Program-made: the position numbers and the translations under genes | Source: Prostheceraeus crozeri | Taxonomy: Eukaryota > Platyhelminthes > Polycladida > Euryleptidae | Assembly: GCA_907163375.1 (NCBI GenBank) | Contig: CAJQUW010000883.1 | Span: 1 to 64,000, forward strand | DNA: 64,000 nt | Direction: 5' to 3' | The notes under the pieces: generated by a model | Told to the model about the DNA's origin: nothing | The model's input: only the letters and a program-made list of their open reading frames with translations | Databases searched by the model: none | Shown: one piece after another, positions 8,151 through 64,000 of the stretch | Layout: each line of letters begins with the position of its first letter | Numbering within the stretch: position 1 is the stretch's first letter

Positions 8151-8382
8151 GGCGAATGATGCTGATACACGCATGATAAATGGTAATTTAAGTGAGGAAG
8201 AAAATTGGAGACTTCATTCTCTGTTCGGAACAAAATGTCAATCGCTAGCAAGTGGCATTGTTCAACTTTTTGTCGCTGATCCACCTGATTATAATGCATG
8301 GAGGAAAGAAGCGTGTGGAATAGTTTGCTTTATCAAAGATTCATTCAAACGCTCATTTTTCATCCAAATGTTTGACATGGAG
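8151..8382 (+). CDS. WASP: WASP exon: N-terminal half of WH1 domain
   Basis: An acceptor (acaatttcag) precedes 8151 and a strong donor (gag|gtaagt) follows 8382. Translation in the frame of ATG 8173 gives LSEEENWRLHSLFGTKC, then a segment containing VQLFVADPP, WRKEACGIVCFIKD and SFFIQMFDME. This matches the pattern of the WASP WH1 domain, with the conserved aliphatic 'VQL', the W..E.CG..CF.KD block and the F.IQ/FI strand. The open frame runs back to the acceptor without a stop, so a further upstream exon with the true start is possible. Confidence 0.9.
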
Positions 8383-11300
8383 GTAAGTATATGTCGCATA
8401 GTTCTTTTTTGTGTTGTTGTATGTATATCTTATTGCATTTCTATCTTTATTATAGTAATTTTTCACCCTCGACACTCATGGTCAGTGATTCATATCTGGT
8501 AGCGTTTTGATGACTTGATCGAAATTCTTAAGGGAGTATCGCACAGTTGCAGACAGAAAAAAGAGTACGACATTGCTAAAGTTATTTTTTCACAATTGGA
8601 AATGAAGTACGGCATACTTTTGGGTGATTGACATTTGCAAATTAATCGTTGGAATATGGGGATTGTTTTACACTACATGCTTTTGCGAGCATTAATAATT
8701 TGACATTTCACATTTGTAAAGAATAGGGTTTTTAAAGGATACATGCTACATATTTTCATTCATAGGATGACAACAAGGCACAGCTGTGATATCATGAAAA
8801 GAGTTGACGTACACTCTAAAATGTGCAATACCAAAGCTACTTACTCGTACGAAACCGATGTACAAAACGAGAATAACAAAATGTGCGGAAGCACTATTGT
8901 TCGTGTTCATACACTACGAAAGCGATTGGCTTTCCAGTTTAATTATCTTTATCATCCAATATGAAAGCCAATCGCTTTGGTAGTGTATGGGCACGAGCAA
9001 TTGTGCTTCCGTACACTTTGTTATTCTCCTTTTGTACATTGGTTTTGTATTCAAAATCAGCCAGCTTTCGGTCTCTACAGTTTACAGTGTACAGATAAAT
9101 AGACTTTACCATGACTCATCAAATGACCTTCATTAATCTACAACAACTATTCTGTAGCAATCGGGAGCATCATTCTGTTGAAGATTATCACATAAGTTGA
9201 GAATATTAACAAATTTCTTATCTTCATTTCTGATACTCGTTCTGCAGTGAATAAAATACCATTTTGTCTCCAAATACATTCATGAATTCGAATTCACAGT
9301 TGATGAAGTATGGGAGTGCATTGTTAAGGAATTTCGATATGCAGTTGGTCACGTTATTCTTGCAAAAGATCAGAATTGTCGGATAGCTATGTCGAGAGTC
9401 AGTCATTCAACTTCACGACAATCTCGGAACATGTGGTGTCAGCAGGGGTACGCGGTTAGAGCAGGCTCCGAGGCGGCTGGTTGTGGATTTTTTTCCATCG
9501 CGTAAGAAAGTCGCGTGTGATTTCAGAACCTTTTTGCTGAAATTACTTAGACGCTCGGTCCCGCGCGTCTCTGTGTGTACAGGCCCATAGGTTTATCAAG
9601 GTTCTGAACGTCATTCCGCGCCGTGTCAGGTGTGAATAGACTTTAACAATGTGCGATTATCATAACGGCTGAGGGAAATTATTGCAATGAATACAAATAG
9701 GCAATACCAAGGGAAAAATAGTATTTGTATTGCTCTGCAGTAATGAATCAGAAGTCGAGAAGAGAATGCAGCTCAATACCGGCTGTCGGTTGGAGTGGAG
9801 TTTCGTTTTCTGATGAACTGTTCAGCTCTCAATTCGATCGATTCATAAAAATAATTTCTCTCATCATTTTCAGAAGAATATAATGCTTTGGAGTCAAGAG
9901 ATCAATCATGGTTTCGAATACAACACACCGAGTCCTCTCTTCCATACATTTCAAGCCTATGATCGTTCAGCGGGACTCAATTTTGCCATTGATGACGAAG
10001 CCCAGAATTTCGCTTCGGTCATTCAAGCCAAACTTCAACAGAGAAGGAAGCGAAAGGAGCAGAGCATCAACGCACGTGCAGGAGAACAGCAATGTGTTAA
10101 AGGACCATCAGCATCCAATATTGCAGCTTCAAGGAGTCAATCAGCAACTTCCATATCATGCAATGCCGGCGGAGATTCAAATCAAGATATTGGAAGAAAA
10201 GGCGACACTTTACGTGCAACTGGAACTAAAAGCAAGAAATTGACAAAAAAGATATCGGACTTCCATTTGATTTCACACATGTCAATCACGTCGGAGATGT
10301 CACACCACCGCTTTCAAATGGACGGTCTTCTCAGTCACCGCCGTCACCACCACGTACTGGTCCGCTCTGGGTTTGCGGTTCCCCGCCTCCTCCACCGTTA
10401 TTGGGTTCGATGCCACCACCACCATCTTTAATGTCACAACAGAGCAGGATGTCTCCACCAGCAGGACCGGCAATTGGTCGCACTTTGTCCCCTCCACCAC
10501 CGCCGCCTCGAATGCCACAACCGAACAAGATGTCTTCTCCCCTAGCAGGACCGGCAATTGGCGGCGCTGTGTCCCCTCCTCCACTACCGTCTTCTCCAAT
10601 GCCACAACCGAACAGGATGTCTTCTCCTCCACTAGCAGGACCGACAATTGGCATCTCTATGTCCCCTCCTCCACTACCGCCGCCGCCTCCAATGTCCCAA
10701 CCGAACAGAATACCTTCTCCCCCAGCAGGACCGACAATTGGCATCTCTGTGTCCCCTCCTCCACTACCGCCGCCGCCTCCAATGTCCCAACCGAACAGAA
10801 TACCTTCTCCCCCAGCAGGACCGACAATTGGCGTCTCTGTGTCCCCTCCTACACTACCGCCGCCGCCTCCAATGTCCCAACCGAACAGGATGCTTTCTTT
10901 CCCAGCAGGACCGGCAATTGGCGGCGCTGTGTCACCTCATCCACTACCGCCGCCGCCTCCAATGCCACAACCGAACAGGATGCCAACTCCCATATCAGAA
11001 CCGGCAGTTGGCGGCGCTGTGTCCCCTCATCCACTACCGCCGCCGCCTCCAATGCCACAACCGAACAGGATGCCAACTCCCATATCAGAACCGGCAATTG
11101 GCATCACTGTGTCAACTCCTCCACTACCGCCGCCTCCAACACCACAACCGAACAGGATGCCAACTCCCATATCAGAACCGACAATTGGCATCACTGTGTC
11201 AACTCCTCCACTACCGCCGCCTCCAATGCCACAACCGAACAGGATGCCAACTCCCATATCAGAACCGGCAATTGGCATCACTGTGTCAACTCCTCCACTA

Positions 11301-14300
11301 CCGCCGCCGCCTCCAATGTCACAACCGAACAGGATGTCTTCTCCTCCACTAGCAGGAATGGCAATTGGCGGCGCTGTGTCCCCTGCACCACTACCGCCGC
11401 CGCCCCCATCGAATGTGGCATCACCGCCGTTGCCGCTCGCTCCATGCACTCCAGTTGTAGATAATGATACTCTGCCAGTTCAACCTCCATCCACCGGGCG
11501 ATCAAATCTGCTGCGATCCATTGAGAACTTCAGCAAAGACAGACTGATGGTAAGTCATGGTGGTCAGAATCTTTATATAGAGACGAATCAACATCCATGT
11601 ATTTCGGTGAGATCATGCATAATTGAAATAGCACGGCAAATATCACATTTACATGTAATGGCTATTTAACTGAGACTCCTCAAACATCTTTTACATGCAT
11701 CGATGCAGATATCATCATTACGCGGTACATTGCTGATTTCGTTTTTCCGCATTGTGCCATAGCTAAACTACGTACAATAGCTTGACCTTCACACGCACAA
11801 TGATAGAATCACGATTTCTCATGGAGACGAAAATCAGATTGATCAAATAACTTGCAATGCACTGCCTCCAGTTAAGAACTTTTATTTTTACTACACGTTT
11901 CACTAATAAAACTCTATTTAGATCTTATATGGAGATAGTGACCTAATCAACTTACCCTATTGATTGATCGGTTCTTACATGAACAGTTGAAATCGCAGCA
12001 AGCCGGTGGCTTCCGTTCCATATTAATGTATGCAGTGGAAGAGTCAGATTTTTATGGCGTCATTTGTCTAACTAATATCAACTTATACTATAATATACTC
12101 GTATTAACATAATATGTTAATATAATATATATTAACATTATAGTATAATAATGTTTAATTTTGGCACGTTTGGTAAACAAAATGATAAAAGACGTGCTTG
12201 AGCGACATGACCTAAATGTCAGCTTCAGCCTGCGGCCTCGTCTGACATTTGTCATGTCACTTTATCGCTATGGCACATTTGGTTAATGTTTATTACCGTA
12301 TAGCTTGTAGTGCATCCACTACAATTGAGCTCACTGTCTATGTTACTGAAAATACTAGGCCATAAAGTAGGTATATTAGGTAGAGTGGCAACTTCCGCAA
12401 TTATTAAATCCTCAATGTGTATACACTTTCGATTTTATTGAATGAACTCGTGGGGGATATAGTTGGTAATTGTTGCCAAATGTAAGTACATGTATACACA
12501 TTTTTGCAGTTTTGAAGAAATTGTCACGGAATTGACTGATCATGACAATAATGCAGAAGGAATGATGACATTTTACCGATTCTCAGTGTCATGACAGCCT
12601 TGGAGATTTAATGTTTGTTAAATTAGCAATTCGATGGTTCCTGTTACTTTCACGCTCAACCTCTAGAGTACTTCCTTAAGCGTGATCTTATCACAGCCAC
12701 CTGCCACTGGCAGAGCAAAATAAAAGAATCAAAGACAATCACTTCAATTAACTGTGAAAGATGTAAATGGGTCCACATCTTTATTCAGATTAAAGAAATG
12801 AAGCAAGAATATAGTGAATCACAAAATCATGCCGGTGAAAATTGAATTAAAAACTTGACATTTCAGCCAAGAAAGCACGGATAATATCGTGACTTTTTCA
12901 TGAAGACTTCCATTATAATACGAATCATGAAATTCCCTTGATAATGAGCTTAATTTCCGCTTAGTTAGGATGCTAATTAGCAAATATTCATTCCCTTTGA
13001 TATCCAACTTGCTTCATACTACTTATAAAGGGGCGTCATCTCAGTAGTATATAAATTGGCAAAATTTTGACTTTTTTGAAACTGCTCAAATAATTTTTTG
13101 GACCACGGGAACGTAATCTCCGTAAAAAACTAAATCTTTTGATATAAAAATTGTCACTGTATACAGATACTTTTTTGAGTCGACACTCTACCTTCATATC
13201 CCTACTCTATGCTCGACGCTTCGCGTCTCGTGCTTCAAATAACATAGACAATTCGTTCAATTATGGTGGATGCATCCCAAGCTATACGGTAATAAACATT
13301 TCTAGCATGCTATTGAGTGCTTGCACTAGTGAGAGGAACTCAATGCAATGAAATCTCAATACATTCAATACATAAATAATTTATTTTAGGTGCAAGAACC
13401 ACTTTTTTAAATGCATTCATACAAATACAAGGAACTGCAATATCATGCTGGAGATAGGCCTACTGTACATAAATTTTTGTTTCTCACGTGCATTCAATAG
13501 TCATAACTAATTATGTATAACTATCGAGATTTTGTTCTTCGAATTAAAATTTCGAATTGCAAAGTGAAGTTGTTTAGTTATGAAATTTCTGGATAAAGTA
13601 TTCTTAATTCAAGAAACTTGGCTTGCTTTAAAACCTTGATTTAAAACATGCTTTTCTTGAATATTTTGATTTTCTCAGATAATGCCATGCAATATAAGAT
13701 TTACTTGAGTAAACTGATAAATATTGGCTTTGATGACATATAGTACGGTATTACCAGCCGTTACAAGTGCTTTATGCTGGTGTTTATATGGACTTCATAG
13801 TCAGTAAATCAATACATCCGCATTAAAATGTACTTGTACATTGCCTCAGTATACATTGGCGTTGAGGGCAGATTGAATGAATATATTTTCGAGTTTGTAA
13901 TTCAATAAGCTGAATTCTTATTGATTAAATACAGACATTGTAGACATTGATGATGAACTTGAATACAAAGGGGAATCGAAGAGAATCGTGATTATAAAAG
14001 TGACAAGGAATTCAAGTCGCAAGATTTGCGAAAAGTAGTACAAGGCTACTGTGTTAAATGGCGATGCAGTGATATTCTATAATCGATTCTATCATTACAT
14101 TCTAAAATCCTGGGGAGACCACACATAAACAGTGTTAGGCTGACAAATCTCTAGCAGTGTCATTCACAAATTGAAATGACCTTGCCACGACCAATTAATT
14201 CACTATCTAACAACGTTTCTGCGCGGTCGCCTAAGGAAAGAAGTGCAATTTATGCTCAGATAACAATGCAAATAGATTTCCAAAACAAGCAGTTACGCAC

Positions 14301-21098: not shown

Positions 21099-21189
21099 TC
21101 ACGATATGGTTTAAGATGCTTTGGTGGACAATCGATCCCCGCTACTTGCCTTAATGTCGGCGGTCACAATTGTGACGTGTTATTTATTC

Positions 21190-21395
21190 ATTGATTATTA
21201 TTGCCTTGACAAATCATGTGTGGTGGTGAGGGTTTTGATCCTGCCAATTGACAGAGTCGCGTAAGTGGCTCGTAGCTCAGTTGGTTAGAGCACAGGTCTA
21301 GTTAGCCTTGGTCGTAGGTTCGAATCCTACCAGCCGCACATCTTTTGCATGGTAATTTGATCAATCGTTTATCTGATTTCACTGTTGTTAATTAC
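21190..21395 (+). repeat. tRNA-derived SINE, most complete copy (Thr-AGT-like)
   Basis: Contains a conserved leader (ttgatcctgccaattgaca), then a tRNA-like part at about 21269-21343 with cgtagctcagttggttagag and ggttcgaatcctacc. The T stem is perfect and the anticodon loop reads ctagtta (AGT). The tail is cacatcttttgcatgg. The acceptor stem has a mismatch and an extra base lies before the D stem, arguing against a working tRNA gene. Copies occur at 17345, 51770 and, as tails, at 5362 and 21030. Confidence 0.75.
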
Positions 21396-23271: not shown

Positions 23272-23511
23272 TCAATACCGTTTTTCATCGATAGGCTTAC
23301 ATGGATCTACATGTAGAGGGACATCAGAGTAATCCAAATCTGAGCGTTTGCCTTTACGTGTCGTCCCATATCTCTCTTTCCAAGCGCGTTTTACACGAAG
23401 AATTTTGAAATTGGAATCCATTAAATGTTCGGCAGTGTCATCTTCGTAAATCCATAACGCACCAACAAATGCGATAGAAATAATTGGAAAGATGATCACC
23501 AATTTCAGCAT
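23272..23511 (-). CDS. Putative amidated neuropeptide/peptide-hormone precursor 1 (AWKERYG family)
   Basis: A 79-residue product. Residues 1-20 or so form a hydrophobic signal peptide (MLKLVIIFPIISIAFVGA). An acidic spacer follows, then K41-R42, AWKERYGTTRK (43-53), G54 and K55-R56. Gly followed by Lys-Arg is the standard context for a C-terminal amide after prohormone cleavage, so AWKERYGTTRK-amide is the expected peptide. R52-K53 gives an alternative cut. A C-terminal tail with one Cys follows. A splice acceptor (cattccag|a) sits one base before the ATG, as in the paralogue at 50181-50387, which argues for a real gene with a 5' UTR intron. I do not recognise the family. An antimicrobial or other secreted peptide is an alternative. 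Confidence 0.72.
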   Translation of the reverse strand: MLKLVIIFPIISIAFVGALWIYEDDTAEHLMDSNFKILRVKRAWKERYGTTRKGKRSDLDYSDVPLHVDPCKPIDEKRY

Positions 23512-24198
23512 TCTGGAATGAAATGAACACGATTAATCAATCATATATAATTATTGTAATAATTAGTGATAAAATAGGTCTCTAAAACTATAGCATGTAC
23601 AACTTATCCATTTCGAGCTCTGATATTCGGGGGGAGGGATCTGTCCCCCTCTTTTACTTCATAAGTATAACCCAGATCACATGAAATTCACGATGCAGCA
23701 TGCAGCATACTTTGTACGAACATCCTAATGTGGCTTTCACTTACTCATCTTTATGCTATAAAGATCAATACAAAATCATCAATTTTGAGCGATTTTTACA
23801 CCTCTATTTTTGACATTTTAACGCATTTTTGCCATAAATCTCCACAATGATAGCTATTTACTATGCCAAACTGGCTAAATATGTTGGGAAATAGTCTGTG
23901 AACACAAAACAGATATATAAGATTCCATTTATGTTCTGGAAACAGCTCTAAAATTTGTATGAGAAATGGGGAAGGTTTTTATGCATGATTGAACTTTTCA
24001 ATGTTTCAGTGAAATTGCATTGTACAGTTCCAGGTAACTTAAAATGTGGTTGCAAAGAAGAAGGACGGATTGCAGATGCCTAGAGACTTCAAATAATCAA
24101 GGAAATTCGTAAAAATGGTTCCTTGTCGCGCAATTACTACAAATTTTGGCAAGTAGTATTTGCCATTTTCTATACTCTATTCGATTTTTGCGGTATAA
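23512..24198. other. Upstream of precursor 1; nothing else recognised
   Basis: Probably contains the 5' UTR intron and perhaps the promoter of the minus-strand precursor gene. No further feature is supported. Confidence 0.4.
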
Positions 24199-27822: not shown

Positions 27823-28822
27823 CTAATATTTTGTGGCCCTACCCTTATTGTCAATGACATTACCAATTCGTCTAGGCATTGATTCGATGACATCGTTGAT
27901 TTTTGACTGATCTAACTTTCTCCACTGTCTTTTTAACAGTGACGTAAGTTGTGATACGCCATCCTTAGGTAGCAGCGAACGACGAACGTTACGTTTTAGA
28001 ATACTCCATACATTTTCTATGGGATTCAGATCAGGAGAATGTGCTGGCCAAGATAATATCCTAAGCCCTAATTGAGACTTGCATAAGTTGACTCTACTAC
28101 TCCTGTGACACGTAGCATTATCATCCATAAATAACCAAGTCGATGGATCACCAAGTTGATTTGTCATTTGGCCAATGTTCATTCGTAAAACATTCACATA
28201 GCGTTCAGAATTCATGGTTCCTTACTGTATGTGAAGTTCAGTGCGGCCATTGGTCCAAATGCCAGCCCAAATCAGTAGAGTCGCACCACCTTGTACCCGG
28301 GGACGATGTAAATGTCTCGGAATTTCCTGATCAGATTTTATCCATAATCTCAATCGACCATCACTATCCTTCAGACGGACTGATGCCTCATCAGACCAGA
28401 CAACCCGATCCCATTGATTTTGCCAGTGACAATGACTCATTGCCCATCTGAGACGTCTTTTTGTATGCTGATCTGATAATTCGATCTGAGAGGGCCTCTT
28501 ACAGCTCTTGAAGTTCGACTCAATAAGTCTTCTACGAATAGTGGACTTAGAAATAGACGAGTCTAGTGCAACCATCTCAGTTAACGAGAGACTTGGATCA
28601 ACTTTAACAAATCTCAAAATTAGGCGGTCTCTACGTTTGGATGTTTTGCGTGGACGGCCAGAGCCCTCTTTACGACAGAGTCGAAAATCATAATTATGCC
28701 ATCGATGCACATTTGTGTAAGGGACATTTAGTCGCTTGCTTGTAGCTCGCAAAGAAAACCCTAGTTCTTTCTAGCAAGGCTGACACTTAGCCTTTTGTGA
28801 ATGCGATCTCGTGATTGTTCAT
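27823..28822 (-). pseudogene. Tc1-family transposase pseudogene (DD34E)
   Basis: The minus-strand frame from 28752 to 27823 encodes a nearly complete Tc1 transposase interrupted by one in-frame TAA at about 28216-28218. Visible features are the SGRPRKTSKR DNA-binding linker, SDEAS (first Asp), MDDNATCH (second Asp) and HSPDLNPIENVW (catalytic Glu). There are 34 residues between the second Asp and the Glu. A start-like ATG at 28822 is joined through another frame change, as GFSLRATSKRLN reads in a different frame from the N-terminus. A possible left end with acagtctgtttcataaa lies near 27666. Few lesions suggest recent inactivation. Confidence 0.88.
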
Positions 28823-41699: not shown

Positions 41700-42292
41700 T
41701 TGATTTTGCTAAATTAATAATTCGATGGGTTCCTATTACTTTCATGCTCAACCTCAAGAGAATTTTCTTGGAATATCACGCAACCTGCAACTGGCAGAAA
41801 ATCACATAATCAAAGACAATGATTTCATTTAACTTTGAAAGATGTAAATGGGTCCACATCACTATTCAGATTCAAGAAGTGAAACATGAATTAAGTGAAT
41901 CATGAAATCATGCCGGTAAAAATTGAATTAAAAAGTTGGAATTTCAGCCAAGAAAGCAAGAATAATATTGCGACTTTTTCATGAAGACTTTCATTATAAT
42001 ACAATTCCTAAAATTCCTTTCATAATGAGCTTGATTTCCGCTTATTTAGGATGCTTATTATCAATTATTCATTCCTTTTGATATCCAATTTGTTTTATAC
42101 TACCTACATGTATATAGGAGAGTCATCTCGGTAGTATATAAATTGTCAAATTTTGACATTTTTCAAAAGTGCTCAAATAATTTTTTGGATCACACGAACG
42201 TAATCTCCACAAAAAACTGAATCTTTTCATATGAAAGTGTTCACTGTATACTTTTTTGAGTCGACACTCTGCCTATATATCCCTTCTCTATG
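41700..42292 (+). mobile_element. Family A, copy 5, 5' truncated
   Basis: Matches the second two-thirds of copy 2 and ends atatatcccttctctatg. The left third with its terminus is missing. Confidence 0.82.
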
Positions 42293-43707
42293 ACCGTAAT
42301 ATTAATTATAACGAATGTTTCAAACTTGAGTTCCCACACCTAGAATAGAGAATGCAGGCCTTGAATAGACTTCAACACATGAATTTTTATATCAGATGAT
42401 TTCGCTTGAAGAACTGCTAAAGAAGCCTACCAAAAATAAAAGTGATGGGAACTCAAATTTTAACTGACTTTTGTGAGCAGGTAGCAAAACAGAATGATTC
42501 GATCAGATTATTTGAATCAAAACACGAGTCCGTTGTCTCGACATTCCGGTTGGGCACCAAGTCGTTAAAATTCCCGTCCGATGACTTTCCAAGAATTGTA
42601 TTTAAATCAGGCCACACGCAATAGAAATAATATGCAGGTTTCTATCGAAGGCTTGAATTAATGCCCGATGACAGATAGCTATAATTTCTATTCATACTTG
42701 AACTGTCATGGATTAAAAAACACTTGCGATGGTTCATAGATGTCGATGAACAAGTAACAGTGTTGAAATTATTATGTTTAAGATATACACACTAATAGTG
42801 GGGGTGCTAAGTCGACAATAAGGGCTGAACCGTGCAAATAGAGGGTAGAGGTCAAGATTTTTGCTCTAATACAGATTAAGGCATGAGTATTTTATCTTGA
42901 TATGTATCTCTTTGGACACTTTTATATTTAACGCATAGTCATCAGCCAAAAATTCTTGTTTTACATGGAGAATCCCTATCTAAGATATTAATTGTTTTAG
43001 TCCGCCGCAATTCACTGTTGCTACATTTGCAAGCGTCACTATGGTAACAATAATCAGCGAAGTTTAATTTTAGTCAGCTGCAAAATATTTATCTGAAATG
43101 ACACGTGCTCCAATATAATAAACAAGTTGAATGGTGAAATTGTACTTCAGACTTAACGAAATTGATGATATAAATATAGTTTGTTGATCTTAATGTGTTT
43201 TAAGAACGACATCAGGTGGTGTAATGCAAGCATACACCCACAGTATCGTTATAATCGATTTTGAACAATTTGCGGATATTTATGACATCGTGGAGATCGT
43301 TTCGGCATTTTTTTAGTAAATATAGCATTTTGTTAAATAATGTATCGACAACAATTGAAAGTAGGTCGTTCATTCAACTATTTCTACAAAAAGAAATGCA
43401 TGTAGTGGCGGCTAAAAAACATCGAAGGTCAAAATGAAAACTAATAAAGTACAAAAAATCCAGAGAACTCATAAAAGAGGGTATTTTTGCGTTAAATAAT
43501 TCATGTACGACTCGCAAGTGGAGCGAGCGTACAAAATATGTCACGTTTGGAGAGAGATCGATTTTTCCGGCTGACTTTTAGGACAAAAAATTAATAGGTA
43601 ATGGCTATTACACTGGCTGATCTGGAACAATTTTAATCTGGCAACTGTTACACCGAATTAGCCAGCAAGACTGATTACTTAATAGATAAGCAGGATATGG
43701 AAAGTAT
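42293..43707. other. No recognisable gene
   Basis: A 60-codon frame at 42442 has no recognisable motif. Otherwise AT-rich spacer. Confidence 0.45.
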
Positions 43708-43998
43708 CTACATTAAATAAAGCACTAAATAAAACTTTGTTACTTTAAGAGTTTCCGAATTACCGTAGGCAAATAAGTTTGCTTCGCTTAAGAAATCACT
43801 AAGTATCTCAGAAAACATCGAAGACGAGGATAAACCAAGCAAGGCTAAGCAAGACAAGCAACGAGTCAAGACACATTCTAATGCAATTTTTTGTCTTATT
43901 GAATGATCTGCAGCCATGCTTGTAGCTAATAAACATGAGGCGTGTTGATAGATATGGATAACTTTTGTACCGGCTTCAATACCGCGTGCAATAGCCAC
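43708..43998 (-). CDS. Possible exon of an unrecognised gene
   Basis: The minus-strand frame is preceded by an acceptor-like ttttattaggcag and runs 96 codons to a TAG, reading for example ARGIEAGTKVIHIYQHAS and ECVLTRCLSCLALLGLSSSS. The composition is protein-like and rich in Ala, Leu and Ser. There is no ATG at the start of the frame, so it would be an internal or last exon. I recognise no family, and no matching upstream exon was established. Confidence 0.28.
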   Translation of the reverse strand: MAIARGIEAGTKVIHIYQHASCLLATSMAADHSIRQKIALECVLTRCLSCLALLGLSSSSMFSEILSDFLSEANLFAYGNSETLKVTKFYLVLYLM

Positions 43999-44049
43999 TG
44001 CCTAATAAAAAAGTTCACTGAATAAATCAGTCGATACCCAAAGCATTCA

Positions 44050-45840
44050 AATTATAGATAATTTTGCTTAAAATGTTGGTGCATCCCTTCTTAGTGTCAT
44101 TCTCTAGATCGCTTCAAACAGCAACACCCAACGGACAAATCTGTCCTGAGAAACATTTAACGCAATAAATACATGTTTTCACCAATTTTACAAAAAAGAT
44201 TATCACTTTACAGCACACCGACAGTCAAATTTGCCAATACTCATTTGTGTAGAGAAATATAAGACGTCAACTTCCCTTAGTAGAATGAATGTTTCAATAA
44301 AGTAAGGTAAGTCAAACATAAGGTCTAAGTTTCGACAGTCTGTCAGCTTCAGGGTGCAGTAGTTTTTTTTACTGCGACTTGAAGTTGACAGAGACTGCGA
44401 GAAACGTTGACTTTGTATATGCGCATGCATGTATATTTTGCCTACCGTACTTTATGAAAACGTTCGTCCTACTAAAAGGAGTTCACTTTTAATAATTTTT
44501 CCCCACAGATGACCATGAACCTCCTGTGTCAGGCAAAAAATTGTCAATACTGCTTCAATCACCACCAACCTAGCTCACTTCACGCATTCTAAGCAAGCCT
44601 TCACCAATATGACAAGAATATCTTAAACAACATAACTGGTCTGTGTACACAGACAGACAGAAATACCTCAATCACAATCAAACTTGTCCCACATCTTCTC
44701 AGTATCATTCAGTAGAGCGCTTCACAATGCAGAGGAAAACGGGAGCTCTGCAGGCGAAAAAGCGGTTCTACGAGTAAAAGTACTTGGTCGGATGGATGCA
44801 TTTCCGGGTGCAGTTTCAGTTGTGGATCTGTATCTGAAAAGGTAGCGCATCGACACCCAAAGGCCTTGTCAATGCTGCCTCAATTCAAACCAAACATGCC
44901 CCACATCTCAGTGTCATTCACTAGATCACTTTAAAAACAGTAGTCAACGGGCGACTCTGGGCCAAGAAATAATTCTCAAAGTATAAGTACTCCTCGGATA
45001 GATGCACCTCCGGGTGCAGTTTCAGTTGCGGATCTGCATCTGAAAATGGCAGTGCAACGACACCGAAAACCTTGTCAATGCTGCCTCAATTCGAACCAAA
45101 CTGGCATCAGCCAGGCATGGGAAGCACCTCGCGCAATCAACGCACGCCTTCACCAATTCTGCAAAAATTGTATTTTTCCCACAATTCTTTACAATGTCAG
45201 TCAAAACGTTGATAGTATTATCTCAACTACAACCAACTCATTATCATTCTGCAGAGCACATCAAAAGACAACAGCGCAACTCAGGCCTAACATGCACTGC
45301 ATGCTATCATCACACGTTTTCACCAATTTTACAAAACTATAATTTTCAAGAACGACTTTACATCTACAGCGAATACTTTGCGAATTTGCCTCAATTGAAA
45401 CCAAACTTACCCCATACATTCACAATTTTATCTCCAGAGTATCAAAACACAAGCGTTAACCGGCAAATCTGGCCGGAGAAAATTTCACGCAATCATCACA
45501 CATTTTCACCATTTTTACAAAAAATAGTTTTCGATCATATCTTCACGCTGTCAGCCAAAAACTTTGTTAGTAGGCCTACTGCCTCAATCAATACCGGAGT
45601 TGCCCAAAACCTCAGTATCATTCTCCGTAGCGTTTCAAAACACAAGAGCAAAGGATAACTATATCTTGAGAACCACTTCTCCGAGATAAAGTACTTGGTC
45701 AAGTACAATGTAGATCTATGCTCACAGCATCATTTCAATTGTGGACCTGCATCTGAAAATGGCAGTCACAGCGGTGGCCAAAACTTTGACGATCCCGCCT
45801 CAATCACAACTAAGCTTACCCACACAACTCCCTGACTAAT
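44050..45840. repeat. Decayed tandem repeat region
   Basis: The motif cttgtcaatgctgcctcaat recurs at about 44868 and 45073, a step of about 205 bp. Segments like acacgttttcaccaatttta recur near 44170, 44600, 45150, 45310 and 45500. Units also share cccacatctcagtatcattc and gggtgcagtttcagttg. Divergence is high. The open frames at 45046 and 45194 are repeat shadows. Confidence 0.65.
44203..44430 (-). CDS. Possible small ORF or exon
   Basis: Starts with an ATG at 44430 and runs 75 codons (includes KLTDCRNLDLMFDLPYFIE). It lies 5' of the 43708-43998 frame on the same strand and might belong to the same gene, but no consistent splice pair links them. Weak. Confidence 0.18.
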   Translation of the reverse strand: MHAHIQSQRFSQSLSTSSRSKKNYCTLKLTDCRNLDLMFDLPYFIETFILLREVDVLYFSTQMSIGKFDCRCAVK

Positions 45841-46149
45841 AGGCGACATGTAGCACTTGAATTCTGAGATTTCGAATTGAAATGAGCAATGAAAAAGATG
45901 ATCAAGAGGTCTGGATCAGGTGAGCCACAGATTCGTGTGAATATACATGTGCATTGATATGTAGTGACAACTCTCAGAGAAGTCTTCCTTTGTAGAGATA
46001 TCCGCAGTTTAAATATTTGAGTGAATACAGATGAAATTGTGTGGGATGACCGTCATGAGCAGAGCTATCGATTCGGATTTTATAGATATGATGGATTGAT
46101 GTATGTTTCTTGCATTTCCCATAACTTTTTCTATGTTTGATCACACTAG
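45841..46149. other. No recognisable gene
   Basis: Short spacer between two repeat regions. Confidence 0.45.
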
Positions 46150-46470
46150 TCAATGCCCGAGGCCTAGATTCACAAGCACGAGCAAGCCCGCCGCGGTCTA
46201 GATTCATGCGACCGAGCACGCACAAGTACACCCGCTCGAGGTCAGAATTCACACAACTGAGCGCACCCGATGTCTAAATTCATACGCCGGAGCACACTGA
46301 AGGTATACATTTGTGCGCCTGAACACGCCCGATGTCTGAAATCAGGTGCCCAAGGCAAGAATTTAGACAACCGGAGTAGAGTGCGTGAGTGCATGAATTC
46401 AGACTACGGGTGTCTTCGAGCGTCCAATTTTCGTCATCGGTCGGGCTGCGGTATATGAATGTAGATAACG
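46150..46470. repeat. Short imperfect tandem repeats
   Basis: Degenerate units of roughly 40-55 bp built around cgatgtctaaattcatacg and cggagcacac, with four to six recognisable copies. More GC-rich than the surroundings. Confidence 0.55.
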
Positions 46471-46479
46471 GGCGTGCTC

Positions 46480-47790
46480 CTAAGAATGATCATGAGAAGG
46501 TGTGGACCTACTTTGGTTGCAAGTGAAGCAGGATCATTTATGTTTTGCCGACGTTGTGAAGTTGTGTTGCAAAGAAAATGTACAATTCGCATATTGCTGG
46601 AAACATTCAAGGATTTCATGAGTTGTTTCACAGGTCATTGCTGTCTGTTGCGTGTTACGTTGTTGCACCCTATGGAGTATTATCATGAGAAGGTGTGGAC
46701 AGACTTTGGTTGCAACTGAGCCAGAAGGTTTTTCTTGACGATGTGAAATCATGTTGCGAAGAAAATGACGTGAAAAAAATTCGAGAGATGATGGAAAATT
46801 AAGATGATTGCATGAGTTGTTTCTCAGGTCAGAGTCGCCGGTTGGATGTTGGTTTGCAAAGTCGTTTAGAGAATGGTGATAAGAGGGTATGAAAAGACTT
46901 TGGTTGCAAAAGAAGCGGAATCACTAACGTTTTACTGAAGCCATGAAGTTGTATTCATGATGCGAAGAAAACGACGTGAAAAAAATTCGAGAGATGATGG
47001 AAAATTCCGATGATTGCATGAGTTGCTTCTCAGGTCAGAGTCGCCGGTTGGATGTTGGTTTGCAAAGTCGTTTAGAGAATGGTGATAAGAAGGTGTGGAC
47101 AGATTGGTTGCAACTGAGCCAGAATCATCAAGTTTTTTCTCGACGATGTGAAGTCATGTTGCGAAGAAAATGACGTGAAAAAAATTCGAGAGATGATGGA
47201 AAATTAAGATGATTGCATGAGTTGCTTCTCAGGTCATTGCTGTCCGTTGCTTGTTGCGTTGTAGCACCCTATCGAGTATTATCATGAGAAGGTATGAACA
47301 GACTTTGGCTGCAATTGAAGTGGAATCACTAATGTTTTTCTTGACAATCTGAAATCATGTAGCGAAGAAAATGACGTGAAATGCGAGAGATGATGGAAAA
47401 TTAAGATGATTGCATAGGTTGTTTCACTGGTCCTTGCTGTCCGTTGCTTGTTGCGTTGTAGCACCCTATCGAGTATTATCATGAGAAGGTGTGGACAGAC
47501 TTTGGTTGCAATTCAGTTAGGGTAACAAATGTCTTGCTGACGTCATGAAGCTGTGTTGCGAAGATAATATGTAAAAGTTTAAAAATTGGTTCGATGATTG
47601 CATGACACAAACATTGACACAAAACATTCCATGATTGCATGAATTGTTTTTCTTGTCAGAGTCACCGGTTGGTTGCCGTTTTTGTAATGTCGTTTTGAGA
47701 ATCGTCATGTGAAAGTGTGGGCAGTCTTTGCTTGCAATTGAGCCAGAATCACTCATGTTTTTCTTGACGTTTTAAAGGTGTTGTGTATTT
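46480..47790 (+). repeat. ~200-bp satellite array, about six copies
   Basis: The segment gagagatgatggaaaatt occurs at about 46784, 46990, 47189 and 47388, giving a unit of roughly 200-208 bp. Units begin near atcatgagaaggtgtggac. Their second halves come in two types: one with gtcattgctgtccgttgct, the other with gtcagagtcgccggttgg. Two internal copies (about 46820-46900 and 47028-47100) are almost identical, which points to recent homogenisation. No protein is supported. Confidence 0.82.
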
Positions 47791-48654
47791 TTTTTGTCAA
47801 CGATGAGGCATGCTGAAAACTCAATTGATAGTGTATTATTTAAACAAACGGATTGAAATACTTTTTTGCTAACTCTACTGTGCAAGCTCGTGTATAACAC
47901 GGTATGAAACTCATATTTGGAGAGTATGGTTTTAGAAGGTGGCTTTGGGAAAATGTACTATGAAAGATTGTACAACTATGTAAAAAACCTAGTTTTCAGG
48001 GAGCACTATTCTGAATGAAGTCCTCTTGGCATCTTCCAAACATTTTTGCTCTTTTCCTGATGTCATTTTTTATAGGTTCCGGTGCCATGTTGGTGCTCCT
48101 TTTTGGTAGAATTACAGCACAAGACCAAAACTCATTTTGATTATTTTCAACAATTTGAAATTTCGGAAATACAATGGGAAATTAAATGGGACCCACTACG
48201 TAAAGGAGGAAGTATAAAAAAATTATACTTCCGGTCCCCTACGTAGTGGGTCCCATTTAACAAAAACGGGTGGTCGTATCTGACCTCACTACAGAATGCA
48301 TATCATGCAGCAGAAAAAGTCCGCAAAGATGCGAAGGAGCTGTGGCAGGCAGTGTGTCTAAAAAGGCAGATTTTCAATCATTAGGCCATGCTTTCAGCAT
48401 CTATTGAACTAGCTTCCTATACTTTGTATGCCCTATCTGGAGTTCTCAGCTTTCATTCGCTCATGCGTTCTTATGGACTTGAATCCGCCGAATTGAATGG
48501 ACTTGAATCCGTCATTCCTTAATCTCCGAAATGTGCTCTCGTTCGCAAATGGCACCTTCCTCCAAATTTCTCTCCACTCGCAATTTTTTACAACCAATCT
48601 TTCTCTTGTTCTCGCTACGAATGGTCTCCGTATCCTCATACCGGCCTAACATTG
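47791..48654. other. Spacer with a strong hairpin
   Basis: Nothing coding is recognised. It contains the hairpin at 48176-48261. Confidence 0.5.
48176..48261. repeat. 86-bp perfect-armed hairpin
   Basis: Arms aaatgggacccactacgta and tacgtagtgggtcccattt, followed inward by a second pairing of aagtataa with ttatactt. Probably a tiny palindromic MITE. Confidence 0.8.
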
Positions 48655-48742
48655 CGCAGACTGTTGTAGACCGCTGCAGAAGACAATCGCTCATTTCACG
48701 CAGACTGTTGTAGACCGCTGCAGAAGACAATCGCTCATTTCA
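48655..48742 (+). repeat. Exact 44-bp tandem duplication
   Basis: The unit beginning cgcagactgttgtagaccgc at 48655 repeats at 48699 without any difference that I can see. Recent origin or an assembly artefact. Confidence 0.88.
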
Positions 48743-50180
48743 TATCTTTAGTAACTCTACTGTGGATGAAGTTTTGCTATTCGGAAGATAGAGCCTAAGC
48801 AGTGGGCGGTTGCTGCGTGCGTTGGATTTCTTTACTATCAGTAGAGCATTTTATATTCACTAAGTCTCACTTTGAGTCTCGTTCTCTCTACCCTAAAATT
48901 ATTCGTTTGCTAAAAGTGAGATGTTAAACAAATTCTGATATTGACATCCTCATTACTGAAAAGCCAAAAGCCTTTACCATAAGCTATCTTTTCTTTTTCC
49001 CATCATTTTTCTCTTTCAATTTTATTTCTCATTTGTACTGTCTTCATTATTTGATCGTGCAAGCATGCTTGGGTACAGTTAGATTCAAAATCAAAGCTTT
49101 CTGATACTTGTGCATCTTATAGCATTCATAGAAATATATTTCAATTCAATGACTAACTTTTTCATGCCATATAGAGTGTTCAATGTTTTCATGAATATAT
49201 TCAAATTGGCAATTTTATAACGATGTCACCTATTAACATTAGAAAGCAATTCAAAAGGTGACAGACATTTTTGGGATTAGTGTATATTAAAACGGAGGAC
49301 ACAAATGGGAAGTTGTAGCTCCATTGAAAATGCATCGAAATTGGCGGACATAAATTGGAAATTTCTGATTTATGTCCTCCAACCTTGATAGAATGCTATG
49401 GTGTGAAGACGTGAATCGGTCTAATTATTTACAAATCATTCAAATTATTTACACAATTGTGCTATTTTAATCTTTTTGCAGTTATAGACACCATTTAAAT
49501 TGTCATTGTATCTTTATTTCAATAATACATGTACTATGCAAGCCTACCAAATCTGTGAAGCCAGATAAATTAAAGCAGGTTATTGCGTTTCCATCTAAAG
49601 GCTATGTAGCACTACTTAAACCCCGCCCTGGGATTCGATGGCTATGGATGTCATGTATTATTTTATCCTTAACGCATGTTCATTCCCATTATATATATGA
49701 GACTCCATCTTTCAAGGGAGTGCTTTATTTCTAACCAGAATTATTTAATTTATCATAGAAATTGGTGGTGCAAGCACGAAATATACCTAGGACTCTGAAA
49801 TAAGAGTTGCCGTAAATCACAGATATTTGTCATATATTTAGGATAATTTGAGACAAAATGAGGATATATCTATGGTAAACTGAACTTTATTTTCCTTGCC
49901 GATGCTTCATTTTCCAAGAGAAAATATAGCACTGCTTTAAAATGGCAAACATGCTTTAAATCAGATTGAGAGAGAGAGCACTTTTTTCTCATACTTGAAG
50001 AAAATAAAGTCCTCTTAAATATTCGTAATAAGTACTCTATTTCATACATATTGCACTTTACGCTTGGTATTCCGTTGGTATCTGAATCGGCGACTTCTGA
50101 AAATATCCGAAAGTCTGTGAACAGAAAAACTTCGTTAATACTCGAATAAGTCTCTAATACCAGTTACAGTCATTTTATCT
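48743..50180. other. No recognisable gene
   Basis: Contains a small inverted pair (ggaggacacaaat near 49296 and atttatgtcctcc near 49380). Otherwise nothing supported. Confidence 0.5.
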
Positions 50181-50387
50181 TTATAACAGTCGTTGAAAAT
50201 GGGAGCGTTTTCCTCTCCGTCCTGTACCATATCTCTCCTTCCATGCGCGCTTGGAAATGGCAGAATTCAAAGTATTTTCGAGTAACACATCATCATCATC
50301 ATACCCTTGATACTGATCACATATCCAGGAGGCTCCGATGACGGACACACATACAACCAAGAAAATGACTGCGATCTTTGATGACAT
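50181..50387 (-). CDS. Putative amidated neuropeptide/peptide-hormone precursor 2 (AWKERYG family)
   Basis: A 68-residue product. Residues 1-19 form a signal peptide (MSSKIAVIFLVVCVSVIGA), followed by an acidic spacer with D30-D33. K46-R47 then precedes AWKERYGTGRR (48-58), G59 and K60-R61, again a cleavage plus amidation context. The tail is only SHFQRLL. Nine residues of the mature core are identical to precursor 1, while the spacer and tail have diverged, the pattern expected when selection acts on the released peptide. A splice acceptor (tcgtttcag|g) again lies one base before the ATG. Family not recognised. Confidence 0.72.
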   Translation of the reverse strand: MSSKIAVIFLVVCVSVIGASWICDQYQGYDDDDVLLENTLNSAISKRAWKERYGTGRRGKRSHFQRLL

Positions 50388-50521
50388 CCTGAAACGAAAA
50401 AGGATCGATGAAAGAATGACTAATGAATGACTTTTAGAGAGCTGTTGCGGAGAACTTGTTGATATTTGAACATACGCAGTAAAAGAATCAACGATTTACC
50501 ATGTTGAAACCCTTAGAGTAA

Positions 50522-50900
50522 GTTTATTAGCAGCAAACATGCTTCAGTAGGCAAGCTACCATCATCAGTGACAACGGTCAGTAAACAAGGATGCAATATA
50601 TACAGTGCGAATTAGACAAGAAAAATCAGTATAGGAAAAGCGGCTGTGATTGGCTGCGGTTATTCAAGATAATTTTAAAATTCTCATTCGCACTCCATAC
50701 ACGAAAATTGCTGAATCATTGTATTTAAAGTCATTCCTTCATTCACAGTACCTAATGAATAACCGCAGCCAATCACAGCCGCTTTTCCTATATTGATTTT
50801 TCTTGTCTCATTCGCACTGTATATATTGCATCCTTGTTTATTGACCGTTGTCACTGATGATGGTAGCTTGCCTACTGAAGCATGTTTGCTGCTAATAAAC
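50522..50900. mobile_element. Palindromic Penelope-type element with CTGATGA hammerhead-like core
   Basis: Inverted arms of about 145 bp start gtttattagcagcaaacatg and end with its complement. In the right arm CTGATGA (50854-50860) is followed by a GTAG-cttgc-CTAC hairpin (50863-50875) and GAA (50877-50879), then aataaa. This is the order of conserved residues in hammerhead ribozymes of Penelope-like elements. The base after GAA is G rather than A. The ribozyme activity is inference. Confidence 0.6.
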
Positions 50901-50929
50901 CTATCAAAAGCTTGCGGCTTCTCACTGTC

Positions 50930-51478
50930 CATAGAGTAAGCATGACAGGTGGAGTAGCAACTCAGTATTAGTTAAATTCCCAATATGTATGCAGTTTCGA
51001 TTTTATTAGATGAACTCGAGTTGAGACCCAATAACAAATGTGAGATATGCGAATTTTTGCAGATTTGGAGATATTACCACAGAATTGACTGATCATGATA
51101 GCAATGCAGAAGGAATGATTGTATTTTGCAAATGCTCCGTGTGATGGCAACCTTGGAGAGGCAATGTTTGCTAAATTAACAATTCGAGGGTTGCTATTTC
51201 TTCGATGTTCAGCCGTAGAAATAAGAGTATTTTCTAAGCTTGATCATATCACAAACTACCTGCCACTAAAAGAGCAAAATATCACAATCAAAGCCCATGA
51301 TCATAATTGACTTGGAACAGATGTAAATGAATTCACATTACAATTCAGATTCAAGAAATGAAACCTTGAATTGGAGAATGATCAAGCTCATGCCGATGAA
51401 AATTGAATTTGAAATTTGAAATTTTAGCTAAGATGCGCAATTAGATCTCACCTTTTCCATCAAGACTTGCATGATAAT
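50930..51478 (+). mobile_element. Family A, copy 6, 3' end lost
   Basis: Begins catagagtaagcatgacag and follows copy 2 for about 550 bp until hAT-like sequence takes over near 51480. Confidence 0.78.
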
Positions 51479-51479
51479 T

Positions 51480-51640
51480 AGTGTTGTGCGGTTAGACAAA
51501 TTTCTTAACCGTAACCGACCGTACAGAAAACGTCCGTAACCGTAACCATGGGATTTTTAACCGCAACCAACCGTAACCATTGGATTTTTTAACCGTAACC
51601 GACCGATAACCGCAAAAACATATATCCAACTGTTGATCGT
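51480..51640 (+). mobile_element. hAT-like terminal fragment
   Basis: Begins tagtgttgtgcggttaga and continues with at least five copies of taaccgtaacc-type subterminal motifs, a typical hAT end. The opposite end was not found. Confidence 0.5.
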
Positions 51641-51769
51641 ATGAACGTAAAGGCTCGTTGAGTCAAAATCAGTCTAAATCAGTTATATTACTGGTCATCG
51701 TAATAAACCGCAACTTAATAAATGTCAGTCACCATTGTGTCGAAATATTTTTTCACTGATCACAATTGC

Positions 51770-51905
51770 AATGACAGCTGATGATGGTGATGGTGGGGAC
51801 TTGATCCTGACAATTGACATCCGTCGTATATAAGCAATCGTAGCTCAGTTAGTAGGGCACAGTTCTACATGCAGATAGATTGGAGTTGTGGGTTAGAAGC
51901 AAGTA
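51770..51905 (+). repeat. Diverged copy of the Thr-AGT-like SINE
   Basis: Shares the leader cttgatcctgacaattgaca and a tRNA-like cgtagctcagttagtagggc with the copies at 21190 and 17345. Box B is degenerate (gtgggttagaagc). Confidence 0.6.
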
Positions 51906-60793: not shown

Positions 60794-61822
60794 TCACTCA
60801 TGGTTGATATCTTCGCCAGCCATGCAAGCGGGGAGAAGAGTCAGCATATGTTGGTAGATATTGTGCACTTTGTCGAGGGTGATGGCTGCAATGGCTTGTT
60901 CGGCAAGCTGCATCATTGTTGCCACCCTTCGCTGTTGTTGTTGTTGGAGCAGATCATCTCGGATCTCTGCCATCAGCTTCTTGAATTCAGCCTTCCATAC
61001 GCTGAAGGAGCCCTCGCAAATGTTCAAGAAGGGAGAGTAGGCAGGCTGGAAGCGATAGGAGTGTCCCACTTTCAGTTGAGCAATAGCAGCTATGTTGTGA
61101 GATGGAGCGTTGTCGAAGATGAAGATCAAAGTCCTGTCTTGAAAACGTTCGGAGCACTCCTCGAGAAATTGCTTGAAGTCAGCAGCGCGATATCCTCCTT
61201 CCTTGAATGCATGGTGCACCAAGCCTCGTTCGTTTGACACAGCGAAGATTGTGGACATGTGTGCGCTTTGTCTTGCATTAACAACTCGAAAGGCTGGCTG
61301 TCCTCGTAGCGCTCTGCCCATGCTTCTTCTCAACCAGAGGCGAAAACCGCTTTCGTCGACATACACTTTTTCGACGTTGGCCATCCTCAATAGCCATTGA
61401 GCCATATCCCTTCGCGCAGCTTTAACATCAGGCGAGTTGCGTTGAGCCGGCACGTCGCGCAACAACTTCAAAGTTATAAGACGACCATTCAGTGCATTGG
61501 CAACTGAATTTTCACAAATTCGAGGTTTGTGCGGAAGTCTGTGGCGGAGTTCTGTGTTGATTTGAATCAACGTGTACTCAGGGTGCTCCTCGACGACTGA
61601 AACAATTGCATTGATCATTTGCGCATCAATGCGCCTGTTGCGAGTGCCACCGCGAGGGCGAGAAACGACACCATGCTGTTGATAGCGTCGAATGATCGCA
61701 TACGCAGTTCCTTGAAGGATTCCCAACTGCCGCGCCGTCTCAGCAAAATCTTCATGCCTCTCGTAGGCAGCCACGATTCGTTGTTTGTCAACGTCGCTTA
61801 TGCGGTTTCTTGGCATCGTCAA
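60794..61822 (-). CDS. Intact IS630/Tc1/mariner-superfamily transposase with DD32E spacing
   Basis: A 342-residue uninterrupted frame. The N-terminus has a paired-like helix-turn-helix (DVDKQRIVAAYERHEDFAET, YAIIRRYQQHG) and a basic GGTRNRR linker. The catalytic core has VDESGF (first Asp), FIFDNAPSHN (second Asp) and YSPFLNICEGSF (Glu). Exactly 32 residues separate the second Asp from the Glu, against 34 in the Tc1 copy at 27823. The acts-as-cut-and-paste role is from family knowledge. No introns and no lesions, so it may be active or recently so. Clear terminal inverted repeats were not found around it. Confidence 0.88.
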   Translation of the reverse strand: MTMPRNRISDVDKQRIVAAYERHEDFAETARQLGILQGTAYAIIRRYQQHGVVSRPRGGTRNRRIDAQMINAIVSVVEEHPEYTLIQINTELRHRLPHKPRICENSVANALNGRLITLKLLRDVPAQRNSPDVKAARRDMAQWLLRMANVEKVYVDESGFRLWLRRSMGRALRGQPAFRVVNARQSAHMSTIFAVSNERGLVHHAFKEGGYRAADFKQFLEECSERFQDRTLIFIFDNAPSHNIAAIAQLKVGHSYRFQPAYSPFLNICEGSFSVWKAEFKKLMAEIRDDLLQQQQQRRVATMMQLAEQAIAAITLDKVHNIYQHMLTLLPACMAGEDINHE

Positions 61823-62070
61823 ATTTCAACAGAATATCGTTTTATTGAAGCTTTTAACTTGGCAGTGAATTGATGTCTTGCGCGTTTTGCAGTTGATTTG
61901 CGATTATTGACACCTAATCACTTAATTGACACATGAATTGAAAATTTCTACTCTTGATCTAAGAAATAAGCCGGCTGAATTGCGTCATCTTACATTTGAC
62001 ATGATAAAATATTCTTGTATTGAGATTATTTACAATTGATTTTCATTAGCTTATATTTGACTTGGAAAAG
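61823..62070. other. 5' side of the transposase
   Basis: Presumed upstream region of the transposase; no terminal repeat recognised. Confidence 0.4.
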
Positions 62071-63392: not shown

Positions 63393-64000
63393 TTATTTTC
63401 TACAGTGTAGACAAACTATGGTTTTTTCAGCGTGTTTACCACAGACGTGAGAAGCACAGGAAACACACATATTTTGAGTTTTGTTTCGGCATCCACGCTC
63501 AGCACAAAATCGACGTGACTGTGAAGGAGTAGACGGAAGGCTTGTTGTTTGAGTGTTGAAGCCTGTCAGTTCCTTACCGAGATCAAGGATAAAATTTCGT
63601 CGGCTGATGAATGAGTTGTTTGCATATCTGAACAAAATCCAAGCATTGATAGCGGCCATGTCCAGTATGTTGAAAAATACAGCGACTGGCCAGCGTCTCG
63701 AAGCAGATTTGGTGGAATACAACCGAGCCATCTGATCTATGCAATCAACGCCGACCTTTGTTGTGTTATAATGCAAGATTGTTTCTGGTTTTCGCTTCTC
63801 ACTGTCTGCGATGTTGACATTATCGTGTAAAGTGCTCAACAAAGCGACAACTTTGGTCTTTTTGGCTTTGTAAACTGTCAACGTGCACCCAGATTCCGAG
63901 CGAAGAATTTTAGAGTCATATACATGATTCTTTGTCATGATTTTTTGGACGTCGGGTAACTCACGTCTGCTTTTCTTTACTGTTCCAACCAAGCTGGTGT
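63393..64000 (-). CDS. piggyBac-type transposase, C-terminal part (cut by window edge)
   Basis: The minus-strand frame is open from the window edge to a stop at 63393, so about 202 residues are visible. Features are LVGTVKKSRRELPDVQK, then GVDCIDQMARLYSTKSASRR (the GVD..D block with a catalytic Asp) and WPVAVFFNILDMAAINAW. The C-terminal cysteine/histidine zinc-binding domain reads C..RGCRNKTQNMCVSCASHV, CGKHA and VCLHC. No lesion in the visible part. Family members excise precisely at TTAA. The rest lies beyond 64000. Confidence 0.9.
   Translation of the reverse strand, partial: TSLVGTVKKSRRELPDVQKIMTKNHVYDSKILRSESGCTLTVYKAKKTKVVALLSTLHDNVNIADSEKRKPETILHYNTTKVGVDCIDQMARLYSTKSASRRWPVAVFFNILDMAAINAWILFRYANNSFISRRNFILDLGKELTGFNTQTTSLPSTPSQSRRFCAERGCRNKTQNMCVSCASHVCGKHAEKTIVCLHCRK

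Follow-up and report, generated by a model that had tools for sequence, protein, structure and literature searches.

The interval 50181-50387 raises the question of whether it holds the gene for a short secreted signaling peptide, and whether such a gene belongs to a family. The window, by which we mean the whole stretch of DNA analyzed here, corresponds to positions 1 to 64,000 of contig C715, which is 267.5 kb long, and the assembly searched contains 2.05 Gb in 14,165 contigs. Judging from sequence comparisons, we think it probable that the window holds two paralogous neuropeptide (or peptide-hormone) genes, each encoding one conserved secreted amide and related to a longer type of precursor encoded on contig C611.

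Two short precursors in the window

The interval, on the minus strand, corresponds exactly to one open reading frame including its stop codon, which encodes a precursor of 68 residues (copy 2), MSSKIAVIFLVVCVSVIGASWICDQYQGYDDDDVLLENTLNSAISKR-AWKERYGTGRR-GKR-SHFQRLL. The coordinates that the earlier note had given for this second precursor were right to the base. The other precursor (copy 1) reads MLKLVIIFPIISIAFVGALWIYEDDTAEHLMDSNFKILRVKR-AWKERYGTTRK-GKR-SDLDYSDVPLHVDPCKPIDEKRY and ends in RY without a glycine. As the earlier note had described, the two are encoded on the same strand about 27 kb apart (both minus, with ATGs separated by 26.9 kb), and AWKERYGT is identical in both, within a recurring core of the form KR-AWKERYGT-xRx-GKR. 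The layout around this core is likewise kept, with KR upstream, GKRS downstream, a hydrophobic signal-like start, and an acceptor-like AG one base before the ATG, while spacer and tail have changed: 11 of 38 aligned residues are identical before the core, 15 of 17 inside it, and 0 of 6 after it. At the DNA level, the copies match over the core for 56 bp (78.6%, E = 4e-7 within the window), and the copy 2 protein retrieved copy 1 with an E-value of 4.9e-7 genome-wide.

All stop-to-stop frames of at least 40 amino acids in the window (697 frames) were scanned for dibasic and glycine-dibasic sites downstream of a methionine with a hydrophobic start. Only 3 frames were kept; two were copies 1 and 2, and the third was an unrelated hydrophobic frame. 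Feature coordinates are collected in Table 1.

Table 1. Positions of the peptide genes and associated features; positions are those of the window unless a contig is given.
Feature	Position	Strand	Remarks
Copy 2 precursor CDS	50181..50387	-	68 aa + stop, one exon
Copy 2 signal-peptide-like N terminus MSSKIAVIFLVVCVSVIGA	50331..50387	-	hydropathy scan only; putative cleavage point
Copy 2 splice-acceptor-like AG (50389-50390) and pyrimidine tract (13/15)	50389..50405	-	1 base, then ATG
Copy 2 core KR-AWKERYGTGRR-G-KR	50205..50252	-	predicted processing
Copy 2 predicted peptide AWKERYGTGRR-NH2	50214-50246	-	predicted processing
MITE-like inverted repeat	50519..50903	.	148-bp arms, 97% complementary
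Copy 1 precursor CDS	23272..23511	-	79 aa + stop, one exon
Copy 1 signal-peptide-like N terminus MLKLVIIFPIISIAFVGA	23458..23511	-	hydropathy scan only; putative cleavage point
Copy 1 splice-acceptor-like AG (23513-23514) and pyrimidine tract (12/15)	23513..23529	-	1 base, then ATG
Copy 1 core KR-AWKERYGTTRK-G-KR	23344..23391	-	predicted processing
Copy 1 predicted peptide AWKERYGTTRK-NH2	23353-23385	-	predicted processing
C611a precursor	C611 507648-508103	-	151 aa
C611b precursor	C611 513854-514300	-	148 aa

An acceptor-like AG was found 1 to 3 nt upstream of the ATG in all 4 genes of the family (the two in the window and the two on C611), with 12 to 13 pyrimidines in the preceding 15 positions. 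As a background, 131 of the 2896 ATGs in the window pass a looser acceptor test (at least 9 of 15 pyrimidines). We take this layout to be a shared gene structure, in which a non-coding first exon would be followed by one coding exon. The MITE-like repeat lies within either the presumed 5' intron of copy 2 or the region upstream of it, and does not belong to the gene.

Longer precursors elsewhere in the assembly

The earlier note had suggested a local gene family that may continue outside the window. Whole-genome searches uncovered no further copy on the 267.5-kb contig; the relatives that they revealed form a longer, multi-peptide pair of genes on contig C611. These searches were six-frame and intron-blind, and more divergent members could escape them. 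With copy 2 as query and E-values up to 10, four places were found: copy 2 itself, an identical protein on contig C10060, copy 1, and C611 (E = 0.17). Copy 1 as query gave six places, i.e., both window copies, C10060, C611 twice (E = 0.022 and 2.8), and contig C5521 (E = 0.3). The C5521 match was dropped; its frame contains a stop, and none of the 5 frames listed there is precursor-like.

Searches by pattern gave a similar picture. The exact degenerate core pattern occurs at 3 places genome-wide, one of which is the C10060 copy (reversed control, 0), and a relaxed version at 7 places in 2.05 Gb (reversed control, 3): four loci, the C10060 copy, and two other matches, on C2284 and C7955, which have Thr in place of Ala/Ser and Phe in place of Tyr. 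We thus count four loci plus the C10060 copy as the family, namely the window pair and two longer precursors on C611. Among prokaryote and viral contigs, no relative was confirmed, which accords with an animal gene.

The two C611 genes (C611a and C611b) lie 6 kb apart, and their products share 50% identity across residues 5-148 (E = 2.6e-37). Both precursors begin with a signal-like start, a spacer, KR-[AS]WKARYGxxRx-GKR, a second spacer, and KR-FMxMxGxSNTRx-GKR. These are followed by an (S)GHFxxxxQR stretch, by PYGAWDIDFxQLGPxLxxWxN, and by a terminal FxxSxxPIMRY-GRRR with the stop directly after it. The predicted amides are [AS]WKARYGxxRx-NH2, FMxMxGxSNTRx-NH2, and a terminal PIMRY-NH2 peptide. 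Like the window copies, the C611 genes have a signal-like start, the KR-...-GKR core as first peptide, and a single coding exon; unlike them, they encode 151 and 148 residues, with the additional FMxMxGxSNTRx-NH2 peptide, the PYGAWDIDFxQLGP stretch, and the terminal PIMRY-NH2 peptide. The acceptor-like AG stands 3 nt before the ATG in the C611 genes, and 1 nt before it in the window copies.

The short and the long precursors are connected by marginal E-values (0.174 with copy 2 as query, 0.022 and 2.8 with copy 1), and a search with C611b did not retrieve the window copies among its 13 matches. The family link rests on the 11-residue core, the processing frame, and the acceptor-ATG layout, and it is statistically modest.

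Predicted products and known peptide families

Two features of amidated precursors were found in copies 1 and 2: a hydrophobic N-terminal start, as judged by the hydropathy scan, and a short conserved peptide between a dibasic site and a glycine-dibasic amidation site. GKR is a standard signal for cleavage and subsequent amidation. As GKR follows the core, the 11-residue amides AWKERYGTTRK-NH2 and AWKERYGTGRR-NH2 are likelier mature products than AWKERYGT alone. Amides that end in K or R are less usual.

Processing could also take place within the core, at an RR that follows a glycine in copy 2 and at an RK in copy 1. A convertase cutting there would release AWKERYGT-NH2 from copy 2 (from ...TG-RR) and AWKERYGTT from copy 1, and AWKERYGT is indeed the strictly identical part of the two. 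However, the C termini of the two copies would then differ in kind, and an internal dibasic site is absent at this place from both C611a (TSRL-GKR) and C611b (RARS-GKR), whose GKR nevertheless has equal spacing. We regard internal cleavage as unlikely.

For the 11-residue amides, the transcript would contain a non-coding 5' exon, joined by splicing just before the ATG of the single coding exon, and on expression the signal peptide would lead the precursor into the secretory pathway. A prohormone convertase would cut at the KR before and the KR after the core, the KR would be trimmed, and the exposed glycine would be converted into an amide, freeing one or the other peptide. The released amide would then act on a G-protein-coupled receptor.

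Several described families share single traits with these precursors. The published description of luqin/RYamide (PMC7041311) names a C-terminal cysteine pair about 10 residues apart, a peptide next to the signal peptide, and, in molluscs, a WRPQ-like motif; it also mentions that some flatworm luqins have no cysteine pair and that the luqins of parasitic flatworms are placed C-terminally. The C611 precursors resemble this family in ending in RY-NH2. They differ in that all four precursors contain just one cysteine, and thus no pair, and in that the first peptide is [AS]WKxRYG..., with the RY peptide last and without the WRPQ motif. We rejected membership on the cysteine pair, the peptide position, and the WRPQ motif, of which flatworm luqins may also lack the first two. 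A search of the genome for the exact luqin pattern WRPQGRFG found nothing, a result that an intron or a variant may explain. The core also contains W-x-x-x-Y (WKERY), reminiscent of the Wx3Yamides of oyster and scallop, of which the published peptides end in an amidated Y (PMC5996578). That assignment fails because the Y is not C-terminal: in the window copies it is internal and followed by GTxRx and then GKR. Finally, the LRYamide/LXRYamide precursors described from the bivalves Patinopecten yessoensis and Crassostrea gigas have an amidated RY end, with several peptides in the oyster form (PMC5996578, PMC8398477). Judged by this published description, the PIMRY-NH2 end of the C611 precursors is similar, while the window copies have no amidated RY end; a relation to these precursors, or to scallop RSamide, is conceivable.

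Profile and structure libraries gave no usable match, whether Pfam for all four precursors (best E = 0.097, below the cut-off), NCBIfam for copy 2 and C611b (best E = 0.074, below the cut-off), or the PDB for the same two (best E = 0.057). The strings AWKERYG, WKERYG, KERYGT, WKARYG, AWDIDF, PIMRYG, and the like were not found as a peptide in open-access main texts; what matches there were proved to be chance strings in unrelated papers. While amidated peptide precursors are an ordinary kind of system, this family seems undescribed in the texts searched.

The lack of a match to a known family would also fit secreted host-defense peptides, or other basic peptides that are not neuropeptides, as would a product that is short, cationic, and aromatic, with a net-positive core. 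Defense peptides often diversify in their mature part. Here, the core is constrained, and it stands in a dibasic and amidation layout, accompanied on C611 by several distinct predicted amides, all of which is typical of signaling peptides. A role in defense therefore appears improbable to us.

Divergence, origin, and surroundings of the short genes

The earlier note had read the pattern as that expected under purifying selection on a short released peptide, which a comparison of synonymous and nonsynonymous change inside and outside the core would reveal. The data support this reading, as divergence was unequal inside and outside the core. Over the 17 codons of the core, copies 1 and 2 show 8 synonymous and 3 nonsynonymous differences (pS 0.67, pN 0.08), compared with a pN of 0.43 before the core. 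When 11 substitutions were placed in the core at random (uniform substitution, with sets containing a stop left out), only 1 of 20,000 sets gave 2 or fewer amino acid changes; the 17 codons are a short stretch, and synonymous sites are near saturation. For the other five pairs among the four genes, the same test gave 0, 1, 1, 9, and 47 of 20,000. The first peptide is not singled out for conservation in the C611 pair, where pN amounts to 0.51 before the core (agreement at 13 of 48 residues), 0.25 within the core (12 of 17), and 0.26 beyond it (47 of 81). The sole DNA match between C611a and C611b at E-values up to 0.01 falls inside the coding region.

The copy 2 region recurs on contig C10060. 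Comparison of C10060 1-66000 (of 101,698) with the window showed that C10060 26302-43090 runs collinear with window 41773-51721; identity ranges from 95.9 to 99.0% across the three long pieces, and C10060 has two insertions, one of about 4 kb and one of about 2.9 kb. On either side, the long similarity, which spans approximately 10 kb and takes in copy 2, ends inside the compared stretch. Of 40 matches to window 48800-50180 that were scored among 2196 candidates, only C715 itself and C10060 span it in full; the other 38 are confined to a high-copy repeat in its first 484 to 487 bases. Copy 1 had no partner on C10060 in a genome-wide search with its protein. Either an unpurged allele or a recent duplication could account for the C10060 copy.

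Absence of the downstream peptides, together with tails that have no significant relation to the long form, might suggest that the window pair are decaying relics of a C611-type gene, in which the core seems conserved only through its shortness. Both reading frames are intact, however, from signal-like start to stop, at a near-saturated synonymous distance, and a single set in the 20,000 of the substitution test changes so few residues. The C10060 copy also encodes an identical protein, yet with differences from the window at 1 of 207 bases in the CDS and at 5 of 1011 in its vicinity, its divergence is too small for any inference on selection. We consider decay very improbable. Carriage of both copies inside one mobile repeat, which the earlier note had raised, has hardly any likelihood: the window does contain several transposons, SINE-like pieces, and the MITE-like element beside copy 2, but the exact core pattern is confined to three places in the genome, and the 6-kb neighborhoods of the two genes share, besides the 56 bp over the core, only SINE-like pieces at the differing offsets 21139-21300 and 51708-51867 and a 24-bp chance match (E = 0.8), so that a common repeat was rejected at the sensitivity used.

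If the window pair are indeed functional amide genes, they would descend from, or share an ancestor with, the longer multi-peptide precursor type kept as the two C611 genes, and would carry only the first peptide of that cocktail. A more specific scenario, which we put forward tentatively and at somewhat less than even chance, is that of an undescribed neuropeptide family whose single-peptide genes, releasing only peptide 1, would have arisen from a multi-peptide precursor with three predicted amides, possibly via an internal deletion that brought the front part of peptide 1 next to the processing tail of peptide 2. By eye, TGRR-GKR-SHFQR of copy 2 resembles NTRR-GKR-SGHFGFFQQR of C611b, a likeness that is not significant without the processing site, and the DNA common to copy 2 and peptide 2 of C611b reads CGGAGAGGAAA and CGG AGA GGA AA; copy 1 DNA looks closer to peptide 1 of C611a. 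In the tails, SHFQRLL of copy 2 resembles SGHFGFFQQR, and DLDYSDVP of copy 1 resembles DIDFQQLGP or YSYVPI. Compared alone with the C-terminal halves of the C611 precursors, the tails gave no significant match: out of 3000 shuffles each, 304 for copy 2 and 368 for copy 1 reached the combined score. Once the processing site was included, the counts fell to 0 of 3000 (copy 2) and 15 of 3000 (copy 1), but this is a site whose conservation has reasons of its own. Among the matches listed between C611b and the flank of copy 1, no remnant of another peptide downstream of copy 1 was significant. That peptide 1 became joined to the tail of peptide 2 is a guess, and we infer the direction from long to short.

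Such a derivation would have uncoupled the control of one signal from that of its former cocktail. If the family is real, it would offer a clear case of one peptide from a multi-peptide precursor having its own short genes. It would also add a peptide family that the searched profile libraries miss, because conservation between the short genes extends little beyond the 11-residue peptide. The sequences of the predicted peptides are specific enough to be synthesized and used in receptor screens.

The remainder of the window contains genes and repeats of other kinds. A Pfam scan covered 135 of 178 selected open reading frames of at least 64 amino acids. Two of these 135 frames matched WH1, including a partial domain (PF00568, E = 2.8e-12) in frame 9817-10428 of a gene at 8131-11669 (plus strand), which we named WASP-like by reading its translation; the proline-rich frame after the WH1 frame contains 11.0 copies of a 90-bp unit (10430-11401). 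tRNA-Thr-like, SINE-like pieces at 21139-21340 and 51708-51867 each lie within about 2 kb of one peptide gene, and a tandem array at 46489-47511 (5.2 copies of a 206-bp unit) has similar DNA at C611:490956-492616. Transposase genes, all on the minus strand, are found at 60797-61825, 27826-28770, and 63396-63998; the types detected were DDE_3 (one open frame of 343 amino acids), Tc3 (two frames), and DDE_Tnp_1_7 (a matching piece). Beside the C611 genes, at C611:517582-519241, lies a region with 96% identity to that of the Tc3 type.

Two observations concern other contigs. Positions 1-20000 of contig C6227 (100.7 kb) carry mitochondrial genes, with cox1 identified by Pfam and cox2, nad6, nad5, cox3, atp6, and nad1 named by reading their translations; three near-identical cox3 units stand in tandem, along with more degraded ones. 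The mitochondrial genome may be unusual, or the contig may represent a nuclear copy or reflect an effect of the assembly. According to published descriptions, [A]PGWamides are among the families restricted to mollusks (PMC6425005), with only APGWamide in gastropods and cephalopods and a varying first residue in bivalves (PMC5996578). A mixture of this last, bivalve-like kind was seen in the present assembly, where the degenerate pattern [A/S/P/T]PGW-GKR gave 8 matches within about 230 bp on contig C3896, five of them APGW and three SPGW (control, 0).
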